64,000 nt of DNA, taken from NCBI GenBank assembly GCA_944390745.1, contig CALXQK010000015.1, forward strand, positions 93,158 to 157,157, in the 5' to 3' direction. Made by a program: the position numbers and the translations under genes. Positions within the stretch are counted from its first letter, which is position 1. The number at the start of each line of letters is the position of its first letter. The notes under the pieces were generated by a model. That model was not told where the DNA came from, searched no databases, and saw only the letters and a list, made by a program, of their open reading frames with translations. Positions 8,642 to 36,752 of the stretch are shown one piece after another. The stretch is from an uncultured Duodenibacillus sp. Its GTDB lineage: Bacteria; Pseudomonadota; Gammaproteobacteria; Burkholderiales; Burkholderiaceae_F.

Positions 8642-9283
8642 TCAGGCGCAGCAGCCGCAGCAGCCGCCCTCGGGCTTGCAGTTGCAGTCGCAGGGCTCTC
8701 CGGCAAAGCGGCGCTCGGCGAAGTCCCAGTTCACCAGCTTCTCGAAGAAGGCCTTCGCAAAGGCGGCGCGATCATTGCGGTAGTCGATGTAGTAGGCGTG
8801 CTCCCAGACGTCGATCGTGAGGATGGGCTTCATGTGCTCGGTCAGGGGCGTGCCGGCGTTGGAGGTCGAGTAGATCTCAAGCTCGCCGTCGAGACGCTTG
8901 ACAAGCCAGGTCCAGCCCGAACCGAAGTTGCCCACGGCCGCGGCGATGAACTGGTCGCGGAAGCCCTCAAAGGAGCCCCACTTCTTTTCAATGGCTGCAA
9001 GGAGGTCGCCCTTGGGAGCGCCGCCGCCGTTGGGGGTGAGGCACTGCCAGAAGAAGGCGTGGTTGTAGGCCTGGGCGGCGTTGTTGAAGATCGCGCCCTG
9101 GCTCGTCTTGATGATCTCTCTCAGGGACTCGGCCTCAAACTGCGTGCCCTTGATGAGGTTGTTGAGCGTGTTGATGTAATTCTGGTGATGCTTGCCATAG
9201 TGATACTGCATGGCTTCTTCACTAAGAACAGGAGCAAGCGCGTTTAACTCGTAGTTAAGCTTCGGTAAAACAAACTGGCTCAT
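8642..9283 (-). CDS. sodB: Superoxide dismutase (Fe type) with cysteine-rich tail
   Basis: Converts superoxide to peroxide and oxygen in the cytoplasm. The 213-aa protein has the four metal ligands of the Fe/Mn family: His in YHYGKHHQNYINTL, His in AYNHAFFWQCL, and Asp/His in IDVWEHAYYIDYRNDR. FFWQCL and GSGWTWLV favour the iron form. E. coli SodB is 193 aa; here about 20 extra residues end in CDCNCKPEGGCCGCCA, seven cysteines in 16 residues, unlike the rest of the protein and perhaps able to bind metal. The ribosome-binding sequence CAGGAGAAA lies just before the ATG. A candidate Fur-controlled sRNA at 35147-35334 is complementary to it. Confidence 0.96.
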   Translation of the reverse strand: MSQFVLPKLNYELNALAPVLSEEAMQYHYGKHHQNYINTLNNLIKGTQFEAESLREIIKTSQGAIFNNAAQAYNHAFFWQCLTPNGGGAPKGDLLAAIEKKWGSFEGFRDQFIAAAVGNFGSGWTWLVKRLDGELEIYSTSNAGTPLTEHMKPILTIDVWEHAYYIDYRNDRAAFAKAFFEKLVNWDFAERRFAGEPCDCNCKPEGGCCGCCA

Positions 9284-9489
9284 CGGTTTTCTCCTGAATC
9301 AAACGTGTTGACAGATATCCAAGGAAGCTCAAGCGCCCCTTGAAGGGGACGTCAGGACTCCTGCGTCTAATCATAAACTCTTCGCCTGATCTTCAGCTTT
9401 ATTTTTGCGTCGAGCAAAGGGGGCGTGCCGCAGCCTCCGCCGCCCGGCCGCAGCCGCGGGCGCAGCCCGGCAAAAAAAGAAAAGACGTG

Positions 9490-33816: not shown

Positions 33817-34914
33817 CTAGGCCTTCTGGCGGCCCGGCAACTCGAAGAAGCACGCATCCCCGTAGCTGAAGAAGCGGTAGCGCTCGGCCACTGCGTGGCG
33901 ATAGGCCTCAAGCACGCGCTCGCGCCCGACAATGGCCGACACGAGCATCACAAGCGTCGAGCGCGGCAGGTGAAAGTTCGTGATCATCACGTCGATGATG
34001 TTGAAGCGGTACCCCGGCGCGATGAAGAGCTGCGTGTCCATGGCCCCGGCGCGCAGCTCGCCCTCGCGAACCGAGGCGCTTTCAAGCGCGCGCAGGCTCG
34101 TCGAGCCCACGGCCACCACGCGGCGGCCCTCGCGCTTGGCGGCGTTGACCTTCTCGGCCGTCTCAGGACTGATCACAAACCACTCCGAGTGCATGACGTG
34201 CTGCGAGAGATCCTCCTCGCGCACGGGCTGGAAGGTTCCCGCCCCCACGTGCAGCGTCACGAAGGCTTCATCCACGCCCATGGCGCGCAGCTCATCGAGC
34301 AGCTCGCGCGAGAAGTGCAGCCCCGCCGTGGGCGCGGCCACCGCCCCGGGATGCGCGGCGTAGACGGTCTGGTAGCGCCCGGCGTCATCGGCGCTCGCCT
34401 CGCGCTCGATGTAGGGCGGCAGGGGGACCTTGCCGATCGCATCGAGCACCCCAAGAACCGGATCATCAAACGAGAGCTCAAAGAACTCCCCCCGGCGTCC
34501 GGTGACGGTCGCCGCGTGCGTCTCACCCCCGGCGCCCTCGAAGAAAAGCCGTCCGCCCGCCTTGGGCGTCTTGCTGGCGCGCAGCATTGAGACGGCGCTC
34601 GTCTCGCCCGTCACGCGCTCGATCATCGCCTCGACCGCGCCGCCCGTCTCCTTGCGGCCGCGCAGACGCGCCTTGATCACCTTGGTGTCGTTCATCACAA
34701 GGAGATCCCCGGGACGAAGCAGGCGCTTCACATCGGTAAAGACGAGATCCTCGATCACGCTGTCGGTGACGTGCAGCAGCCGCGAGGCGGTGCGGTCCTC
34801 AAGCGGAAACTGCGCAATCAGCTCCGGGGGAAGGTCAAAGTCGTAGTCGGACAGATGCTGCCCGGCCAGATATTCGGGATGCAGTTCAAAAGACATGTTG
34901 GCTGTACCGGCCAT
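33817..34914 (-). CDS. queA: S-adenosylmethionine:tRNA ribosyltransferase-isomerase
   Basis: Transfers and rearranges the ribosyl part of SAM onto preQ1-tRNA to give epoxyqueuosine. The 365-aa protein shows DYDFDLPPELIAQFPLEDR, GDLLVMNDTKVIKARL, VAAPTAGLHFS, VTLHVGAGTFQPV and SYGDACF. Start is ambiguous: ATG 34914 or the MSFELHPEY start at 34896; neither has a strong ribosome-binding sequence, and an A9 run lies just outside. First gene of a queA-tgt unit. Confidence 0.96.
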   Translation of the reverse strand: MAGTANMSFELHPEYLAGQHLSDYDFDLPPELIAQFPLEDRTASRLLHVTDSVIEDLVFTDVKRLLRPGDLLVMNDTKVIKARLRGRKETGGAVEAMIERVTGETSAVSMLRASKTPKAGGRLFFEGAGGETHAATVTGRRGEFFELSFDDPVLGVLDAIGKVPLPPYIEREASADDAGRYQTVYAAHPGAVAAPTAGLHFSRELLDELRAMGVDEAFVTLHVGAGTFQPVREEDLSQHVMHSEWFVISPETAEKVNAAKREGRRVVAVGSTSLRALESASVREGELRAGAMDTQLFIAPGYRFNIIDVMITNFHLPRSTLVMLVSAIVGRERVLEAYRHAVAERYRFFSYGDACFFELPGRQKA

Positions 34915-35111
34915 GAAAAAAAAAGAGGAATGAAGCGGCGCATTCTACCTTTTTTTGCGCGCTGCGCCCGTTTCCGGCGATGCGCAAGGCAGTTGAATTT
35001 TCGACAAAAAACGCTTCCCCGGGGCGCCTCTGGAGCGCGCCGCGCCGACCGCTTTCCGACGGGCCCGGGCTGCGGCATGACAAGAGGACGGAAATTGATT
35101 TCTTCAACTAT

Positions 35112-35140
35112 TTGCAAATGATTCTCATTTAGGTTATGAT
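35112..35140 (+). promoter_or_regulatory. Fur-box promoter
   Basis: TTGCAA (35112-35117), a 17-base spacer and TATGAT (35135-35140) form a near-ideal sigma-70 promoter. The spacer and -35 are covered by GCAAATGATTCTCATTTAG (35114-35132), containing AATGA-N-TCATT in the classic Fur arrangement; about 12 of 19 positions match the E. coli consensus. Fur with Fe2+ should block this promoter. It fires into a region without a convincing ORF but with a terminator 188 bases on. Confidence 0.8.
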
Positions 35141-35146
35141 GTCGAC

Positions 35147-35334
35147 AACTGGGAAGCAAGGCTCTCAGGCCGCTTCAAGGGCTTCACGAAGCGTCCGGGG
35201 TCGTTGGGGTCGACTCCGCCTGATCGAGCGCCGCGCCTGTTTCTCCTGCAGGTTTGTCCAAGCGGACTGGCGCTTCCCGGGGGTCTCTCTTGGGGTGATG
35301 CCGCACCATCGAACGTGCGCATCACCCTTTTTTT
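35147..35334 (+). ncRNA. Candidate Fur-regulated small RNA (RyhB/NrrF-like in logic)
   Basis: Defined by the predicted start seven bases after the -10 and by the terminator at 35293-35334, giving about 188 nt. No open frame with a ribosome-binding site and protein-like composition was found inside. It can fold CGCTTC/GAAGCG in its first half. An unpaired-looking TTTCTCCTG at 35240-35248 is complementary to CAGGAGAAA in front of sodB (9288-9296), and eight of these bases to CAGGAGAA in front of rubrerythrin. Iron-sparing sRNAs of other bacteria repress sodB this way. Existence and function are inferred from signals only. Confidence 0.6.
35293..35334 (+). terminator. Strong terminator of the candidate sRNA
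   Basis: GGGTGATGC (35293-35301) pairs with GCATCACCC (35319-35327), and an inner GCAC/GTGC continues the stem after one bulged base. The loop is eight bases and T7 follows. It separates the Fur promoter from the downstream TRIC-family gene. Confidence 0.88.
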
Positions 35335-35483
35335 CACCGCGAGCGGACGCCGCGCGCGCCCCTGTGCCGATACAATCGTCCCAAGCCTCCGGGGCGCGGC
35401 GCCGGATCTCCGCCCCGGACCCAGACCCCGCCGGCGCATCCTGTTTTTTCGCCGGCCCCTCCGGCGGATCTCGTCCAGCCGCG

Positions 35484-36188
35484 ATGCTCACGACCTTTGC
35501 CTCGCTTGCCGACTTCATCGGCATCTTCGCCTTCGCCCTCTCGGGCATCATGTCCGCGCAGCGCCGGCGCATCGACCCGGTGGGCGTCTTCGTGCTGGCC
35601 TTCACGACGGCCTTCGGCGGGGGCATCTTTCGCGACGTCATCATCGACAACCGCCCCTATTACTGGATCGAGAACGAGGCCTATGTCTGGATGACGATTG
35701 CGCTTGCGGCGCTCGCCCCGACGGTGATCGCGCGCTTTCATCGCTGGCTCTCTGAAAGCGCCTTCATCTGGATGGACGCCGTCGGGCTGGGATTTTTCAG
35801 CGTCTCGGGCACGGCCCTGTGCCTGGAGGCAGGGCTGCCGCCGCTGTCGTCGAGCATTCTGGGCGTGTGCACCGGAGCCATGGGCGGCATGCTGCGCGAC
35901 GTCTTTCTCAACCGCCTGCCGCTGGTTCTGTCCGACCGGCAGCCCTACGCGCTTGCCGCCTTCGGCGGCTGCTGGCTCTTCATCGGACTGGCCGAGCTCT
36001 TTCCGCAGCCCGCAGGTCTCGGGCGCGAGCTTGCGCTCTGGGGGTCAACCGCGGCGATCATTGCCATCCGCATGTTTTGCTGGTACAAAAGACTGCGCAT
36101 CGTCTCCTACGGCGCATTGAGGCGCCTGATCCGCAGCCGCCCGTCAAGGGGCGCGACGGATGACGCAGACGACTCTTCAAAGGATTGA
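35484..36188 (+). CDS. Trimeric intracellular cation channel (TRIC) family membrane protein
   Basis: 234-aa protein of the bacterial TRIC (YicG/UPF0126) group, which form potassium-permeable trimeric channels. Two repeats of three helices plus a seventh helix are visible: AFALSGIMSAQRRRIDPVGVFVLAFTTAFGGGIFRDVI in the first and FFSVSGTALCLEAG... TGAMGGMLRDVFLN in the second, each with the glycine-rich GGG/GGM-RD pore motif. Start MLTTFASLADFIG was chosen since the longer frame runs back into the sRNA region. The stop is nine bases before rmlC, so co-transcription with the rhamnose genes is likely. Confidence 0.9.
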   Translation: MLTTFASLADFIGIFAFALSGIMSAQRRRIDPVGVFVLAFTTAFGGGIFRDVIIDNRPYYWIENEAYVWMTIALAALAPTVIARFHRWLSESAFIWMDAVGLGFFSVSGTALCLEAGLPPLSSSILGVCTGAMGGMLRDVFLNRLPLVLSDRQPYALAAFGGCWLFIGLAELFPQPAGLGRELALWGSTAAIIAIRMFCWYKRLRIVSYGALRRLIRSRPSRGATDDADDSSKD

Positions 36189-36197
36189 TCTTTTTTT

Positions 36198-36752
36198 ATG
36201 AAGGCCATCGCCACCCGCATTCCCGATGTTCTCATCATCGAGCCGCAAATCTTTCCTGACGCGCGCGGCTATTTCTGCGAAACCTATCACCAGGGGAAGT
36301 TCGCCGCGCTCGGCATCCGCTGCCCGTTCGTGCAGGACAACGAGTCGCTCTCGCAAAGGGGCGTGCTTCGCGGTCTGCACTTTCAGCGCGCCCCGCATGC
36401 CCAGGCCAAGATCGTGCGCGTGCTCGAGGGCGAGATCCTCGACGTGGCGCTTGACCTCAGGCGCGGCTCCCCCACATTCGGCATGCACGCGGCGGTGCGC
36501 CTGTCGCAGGACAACCGCCGCATGCTCTATCTGCCCGAGGGTCTGGCCCACGGCTTTGCGGTGCTGAGCAGCACCGCGCGCATCGCCTACAAGTGCAGCG
36601 CGCTCTACGCTCCGGACTCGGAGGACGCCGTCGACGCCCTCGATCCCGCGCTCGGCATCGACTGGGGGGCACCCGCAGAAAGTTTTCTGCGCTCGCCCAA
36701 GGACCTGCGCGCCCGCTCCTGGGAAAGCTACGCCGCAAACCCGCTCTTTTAG
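36198..36752 (+). CDS. rfbC: dTDP-4-dehydrorhamnose 3,5-epimerase
   Basis: RmlC epimerises dTDP-4-keto-6-deoxyglucose in dTDP-L-rhamnose synthesis. The 184-aa cupin has FPDARGYFCETYH, QDNESLSQRGVLRGLHFQ with the catalytic His, VDVALDLRRGSPTFG-type DVALDLRRGSPTFG and LPEGLAHGFAVL. The ATG follows AAGGATTGATC from the end of the TRIC gene. Part of rfbC-rfbD-rfbB. Confidence 0.95.
   Translation: MKAIATRIPDVLIIEPQIFPDARGYFCETYHQGKFAALGIRCPFVQDNESLSQRGVLRGLHFQRAPHAQAKIVRVLEGEILDVALDLRRGSPTFGMHAAVRLSQDNRRMLYLPEGLAHGFAVLSSTARIAYKCSALYAPDSEDAVDALDPALGIDWGAPAESFLRSPKDLRARSWESYAANPLF

Follow-up and report, generated by a model that had tools for sequence, protein, structure and literature searches.

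The 64,000-nucleotide (nt) stretch of DNA analyzed here, referred to as the window, comes from an uncultured Duodenibacillus sp. (contig CALXQK010000015.1, positions 93,158 to 157,157), a genus assigned to Sutterellaceae in NCBI. Between its queA and TRIC-channel genes we find a promoter with an embedded Fur box, followed by a predicted small RNA (sRNA) of approximately 189 nt (35146 to 35334; 5′ end placed by reference to the −10 box, with support from fold and homologues); all features of this locus lie on the plus strand. The promoter is of sigma-70 type, TTGCAA-17-TATGAT (35112 to 35140), with the −35 element at 35112 to 35117, a 17-nt spacer, and the −10 element at 35135 to 35140, and similar −10 regions are seen in relatives. 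A promoter scan of positions 34000 to 36600 gave three overlapping promoter-like sites at the locus, two on the plus strand and one on the minus strand, against a shuffle mean of 0.2. The Fur box GCAAATGATTCTCATTTAG (35114 to 35132) lies in the promoter spacer, and its core AATGATTCTCATT (35117 to 35129) is the window's only exact match to the three Fur-core words tried; a search of 19 stretches of one related genome (739,632 strand-bases) gives 10 occurrences of the same core when up to two mismatches are allowed. The promoter and the Fur-like sequence in its spacer, on which a first-pass annotation made from the DNA sequence had rested, are thus both present. Genes for Fur and Hfq are encoded. 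Fur is predicted to bind this box, which overlaps the sRNA's own promoter as in the class of Fur-repressed, iron-sparing sRNAs.

The segment from 35146 to 35336 folds better than all of 200 shuffles (z = −3.30) and ends in an intrinsic terminator (35292 to 35334), recognized from sequence and fold. Its hairpin spans 35292 to 35328 and is followed by a run of seven T's at 35328 to 35334; both had been noted in the first-pass annotation, which counted 13 pairs in the hairpin where the minimum free energy (MFE) fold gives 14 with one bulge. A simple terminator scan detected no terminator at the locus, perhaps owing to this bulge.

Homologues of the RNA are present in 10 of 10 Duodenibacillus genomes and in 4 of 12 genomes of a second genus of the same GTDB family (g16), with 24 copies in total, one of them truncated by a contig end. 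The g16 copies number four each in G053 and G057 and one each in G051 and G054. Close tandem pairs account for 10 of the 24 copies (G001, G004, G053 twice, and G057), and one g16 pair (L039:1-1243) has 23S and 5S rRNA genes close upstream. Shared by the aligned copies are the Fur box, an ACUG-GAAAC-like 5′ end, GGGGUCG, UUUCUCCUGC, a GGGG run, and the terminator, the remainder being divergent. It had been expected that homology search would miss such an RNA, yet relaxed blastn in the 10 genus genomes does find homologues, with aligned segments that surround the Fur box or fall within the body of the transcript.

Three successive covariance models, all built without the promoter, extended the set. 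The first detected copies in 9 of the 10 genus genomes and in one genome of another genus, and the third found two copies, both with Fur boxes, in the remaining genus genome, G003 (E = 0.09 and 0.15). Eleven copies were first found by the models alone (G002b, G003a, G003b, G009, G053a, G053c, G057a, G057b, G057d, G051, and G054), while G053b, G053d, and G057c were first recognized by eye beside another copy (G057c being matched by no model); the remaining copies came from, or lay beside, blastn matches. Since the first blastn query included the Fur box, the 11 model-found copies are the fair test of its conservation, and 10 of them carry it. At the eleventh, L254, a Fur-like word is seen only farther away, ~108 nt upstream. 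Across the whole set, 23 of the 24 copies have a canonical Fur core (up to three mismatches) in the 50 nt that precede them, compared with 113 of 20,000 random 50-nt stretches. Promoter, Fur box, fold, and terminator are conserved in relatives. Weak model matches at L243, L244, and L251, with neither Fur box nor the common architecture, were rejected as chance, and L242 proved to be the same place as L040. A separate search (R2) of 399 genomes of the order returned only members of the genus (four genomes), with stricter filters and with g16 represented only by G062, which is no known carrier, so that absence elsewhere is weakly tested.

Single-sequence folds mostly follow one plan, in which a P1 closing helix (35149 to 35157 pairing with 35272 to 35280) encloses a P2 arm (35161 to 35229) and a P3 hairpin (35235 to 35253), with the terminator following. 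The P2 arm carries at its tip, within a distal hairpin (35197 to 35217), the conserved motif GGGGUC (GGGGTC in DNA, 35206 to 35211), which is found in the P2 loop of 23 of the 24 copies. The P3 hairpin exposes UUUCUCC and holds the putative seed UUUCUCCUG (35240 to 35248); UCUCC is usually displayed by P3 in the other copies as well. Exceptions to the plan are G004b, whose MFE fold is without P3, and G053b and part of G057b, which deviate.

The compensatory changes that the first-pass annotation had proposed looking for in relatives are abundant. On a plain MAFFT alignment of nine copies, made from sequence only, 89.9% of cells pair and 10 of 21 pairs are changed on both sides. This alignment reaches a covariation score of 0.497, whereas shuffles give 0.306 ± 0.029 and slid structures 0.09 to 0.18, a comparison weakened by the structure having been derived from the alignment on which it was scored. 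An alignment of 17 copies, biased toward the structure because it was fitted to it, has 95.1% of cells pairing, double changes in 17 of 21 pairs, and a score of 0.583 against 0.259 ± 0.021, with all five covariation measures above all 500 shuffles. The predicted P1 closing helix covaries on both of its strands.

Read in reverse complement, the P3 seed UUUCUCCUG gives the Shine-Dalgarno (SD) sequence CAGGAGAAA, and iron proteins are enriched among genes with this complementary SD. Iron-binding Pfam families were assigned to 22 of 45 sampled open reading frames (ORFs) preceded by CAGGAGAAA, versus 6 of 49 preceded by AGGAGTAA, a control SD with the same core (one-sided Fisher test, P = 1.0e-4; the control count includes BadF, which we take to be an iron protein). 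The 22 comprise seven cytochromes c3, six rubrerythrins, two aconitases, two molybdopterin/Fe4S4 proteins, and one each of Fe/Mn superoxide dismutase, cytochrome b561, Fe-alcohol dehydrogenase, a 4Fe-4S protein, and cytochrome bd subunit II, while the control genes include those for ribosomal protein L5, ParB, and IF-2. A broader definition of iron proteins, adding POR, CcmF, HypC, and CcmD, gives 25/45 versus 9/49 (P = 1.8e-4), and omission of G003 and G009 gives 22/43 versus 5/38 (P = 2.6e-4). For the test set, 60 sites were fetched (58 ATG, 2 GTG), of which 59 were at the expected place and 45 led to ORFs of at least 60 amino acids (aa), one of these with GTG. Left aside from this set were the remaining GTG rows and every TTG row, as well as the sRNA's own complement in G005 and an ATG site at G007:C87. 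For the control set, 60 of 71 sites were fetched, yielding 49 ORFs of at least 60 aa. The Pfam threshold was E = 1e-3 for the test set and five controls and 1e-5 for the other 44 controls.

Within the window, the sole carrier of the 9-nt complement among 47 ATG ORFs of at least 120 aa is sodB, the classical RyhB target. The gene (8642 to 9283, minus strand) encodes an Fe/Mn superoxide dismutase with the Pfam domains Sod_Fe_N and Sod_Fe_C, and the predicted target site, its SD CAGGAGAAA, lies at 9288 to 9296 on the same strand.

Taken with the class features of the locus, these results make it likely that the RNA is a Fur-repressed, trans-acting, iron-sparing sRNA, the first described member of a family in Duodenibacillus and a second genus of its GTDB family. 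The suggestion of an iron-sparing sRNA of this lineage, which the first-pass annotation had put forward, gains good support from the comparison of relatives, and the target analysis points to iron sparing. We infer Fur binding, iron-regulated expression, use of Hfq, and target repression. Iron-loaded Fur would occupy the box between −35 and −10 and block transcription; upon a drop in iron the compact ~189-nt RNA would be made, and its P3 hairpin would offer UUUCUCC(UG) for pairing with the SD (A)GGAGAAA of iron-protein mRNAs. The predicted targets encode SodB, rubrerythrin, a multiheme cytochrome c, an aconitase-like protein, and Mo/Fe-S enzymes, and pairing at their SDs would block ribosome binding, probably with Hfq.

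Several observations weigh against this reading. The target sets include orthologues, and the iron class was assigned unblinded from Pfam names; after collapsing orthologues by Pfam architecture the counts become 10/32 versus 5/37 (P = 0.068), and with a finer collapse, in which two rubrerythrin and two Mo-enzyme types are split, 12/34 versus 5/37 (P = 0.030). Complementarity to sodB is variable among genomes and weak in G007 and G003. The P3 sequence of G003 is CAUCUCCUGC, and a 768,675-base sample of this genome yielded nine iron genes whose SDs are not changed to match it, two of them (a rubrerythrin and a Mo-enzyme) retaining 8 bases of the common complement; both genes with CAGGAGAAA in the G003 sample encode non-iron proteins. 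The G051 and G054 copies are without UCUCC in P3, the motif sitting instead in the linker after P1. Two of the five covariation measures are unremarkable on the nine-copy alignment: pairs with double changes (10 versus 7.3, with 34 of 500 shuffles reaching the observed value) and further pair types (25 versus 24.7, with 267 of 500 doing so). Finally, the conserved P2 loop is without a role in a model built on the P3 seed.

The conserved P2 loop bears on the likeliest of the alternatives, a Fur-regulated sRNA whose main function is something other than P3-based iron sparing, for instance protein binding or control of another regulon through the GGGGUC loop, with the SD complementarity being secondary. 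Retention of the loop motif extends to both copies that have no UCUCC in the P3 loop, and both the failure of G003 target SDs to track the seed change and the weak enrichment among collapsed orthologues favor such a function. We nevertheless judge it unlikely, as iron proteins are enriched among the P3-complementary SDs and no consistent complement of the P2 loop occurs near the predicted targets. Pairing of the P2 loop near the same targets is unsupported, with a mean longest match of 4.6 for iron genes, 4.3 for other genes of the SD set, and 4.2 for controls, and with matches of 7 to 8 in three rubrerythrin leaders. A combination of both functions is conceivable and we advance it tentatively: a two-headed regulator whose seed loop P3, apparently replaced in two genomes by the UCUCC of the post-P1 linker, may address ribosome-binding sites, and whose P2 GGGGUC loop may serve as a recognition element for an RNA-binding protein or a second regulon. 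Such a regulator, if real, would be an iron sRNA of a new type that has been amplified to four copies in some g16 genomes. The conservation of the P2 loop raises in any case a clear new question.

A further alternative to an independent iron-sparing sRNA is that the RNA serves the TRIC-channel gene downstream, as a Fur-controlled 5′ leader or attenuator. In G000, G001, G006, and G008, TRIC does follow on the same strand, but no TRIC gene was found within the fetched flanks, of only ~1 to 1.5 kb, at L002, L003, and L011, so the queA-TRIC setting assumed in the first-pass annotation is not a constant neighborhood. Moreover, the T-tract of the terminator ends ~150 nt before the TRIC start. Close tandem copies carry their own Fur boxes and T-tracts, and these separate signals, together with the varied neighbors, argue for an independent gene and leave the leader very improbable.

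A short Fur-regulated coding gene for a small protein (cf. hemP) is hardly credible, since the short ORFs that occur in single copies are, as judged by eye, conserved neither in position nor in length or sequence, and the covariation reflects selection on RNA pairing. Inspection by eye of the ORF lists for 12 Duodenibacillus copies, 11 full-length and one cut-off, revealed no conserved ORF of at least 15 aa, in line with the earlier remark that no convincing ORF lies between promoter and terminator. The transcript thus appears, from its sequence features, to be noncoding and terminator bounded, as are Fur-repressed, iron-sparing sRNAs. A 350-aa open frame (35136 to 36188, plus strand) traverses the sRNA in frame into the TRIC gene; it is probably a high-GC artifact that could mislead gene callers.

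With RyhB, PrrF, NrrF, and HrrF the RNA shares the promoter Fur box, a terminator of its own, and predicted iron-protein targets including sodB, whereas it differs from them in its multibranched fold closed by a 5′-3′ helix and in a seed that is a loop aimed at the SD. The multiple copies in some genomes are reminiscent of PrrF1 and PrrF2, which are duplicated copies, and dependence on Hfq is known for RyhB and PrrF without being universal in the class. The RyhB, PrrF, and NrrF families are represented in Rfam, and their covariance models gave no match, nor did any other Rfam family give a relevant one, in the window at gathering scores or, with E cutoffs of 10 or 5, in 14 loci (the RNA's own and 13 from relatives). 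A match to CcsR1 at L011, lying over the terminator, was rejected, as its 24.3 bits fall short of the gathering score, 65.3. We found no earlier report of an sRNA from this lineage in the open literature searched. HrrF is stated by its authors to be without sequence similarity to RyhB, PrrF, or NrrF (PMC4144887). BrrF of Burkholderia cenocepacia, from the same order, is described as an sRNA of low-iron conditions that targets iron enzymes (acnA, sdhC, sodB, and katB) and is processed from the 3′ end of the hemP mRNA, whereas the RNA here sits in the queA-TRIC interval and has a Fur promoter and a terminator of its own; by this description the two differ in context. In IsrR of Staphylococcus, which is Fur repressed, and FsrA of Bacillus, C-rich single-stranded regions pair with the SDs of mRNAs for iron-sulfur enzymes (PMC9410917). 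Both are mechanistic analogues, while differing in phylum, in having C-rich runs instead of UUUCUCC, and in fold. We expect the RNA to act in the manner of RyhB, PrrF, and HrrF and to resemble IsrR and FsrA in its loop-to-SD mode. The best reading is that of a new sequence family whose functional kind is known and which is convergent with RyhB and IsrR.

If true, RyhB and IsrR would be joined by another unrelated RNA that reached the same solution. The family provides a concrete, testable candidate for an iron-starvation regulator in a little-studied group of gut bacteria, and the abundance of rubrerythrins and multiheme cytochromes among the predicted targets suggests the form that iron sparing may take in these bacteria.

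Some individual genes preceded by the target SD stand out. At L118 (G001) and L142 (G007), a weak Tat-signal match is followed by an aconitase domain, and an exported aconitase-like protein would be unusual. At L111 (G000:C13:117994-118909), CAGGAGAAA precedes a gene for a DUF169 protein whose N terminus looks Tat-like by eye. A sodium-dependent (SNF) transporter gene has the SD CAGGAGAAA in two genomes, at L162 (G005) and L168 (G002), and may be a non-iron target.
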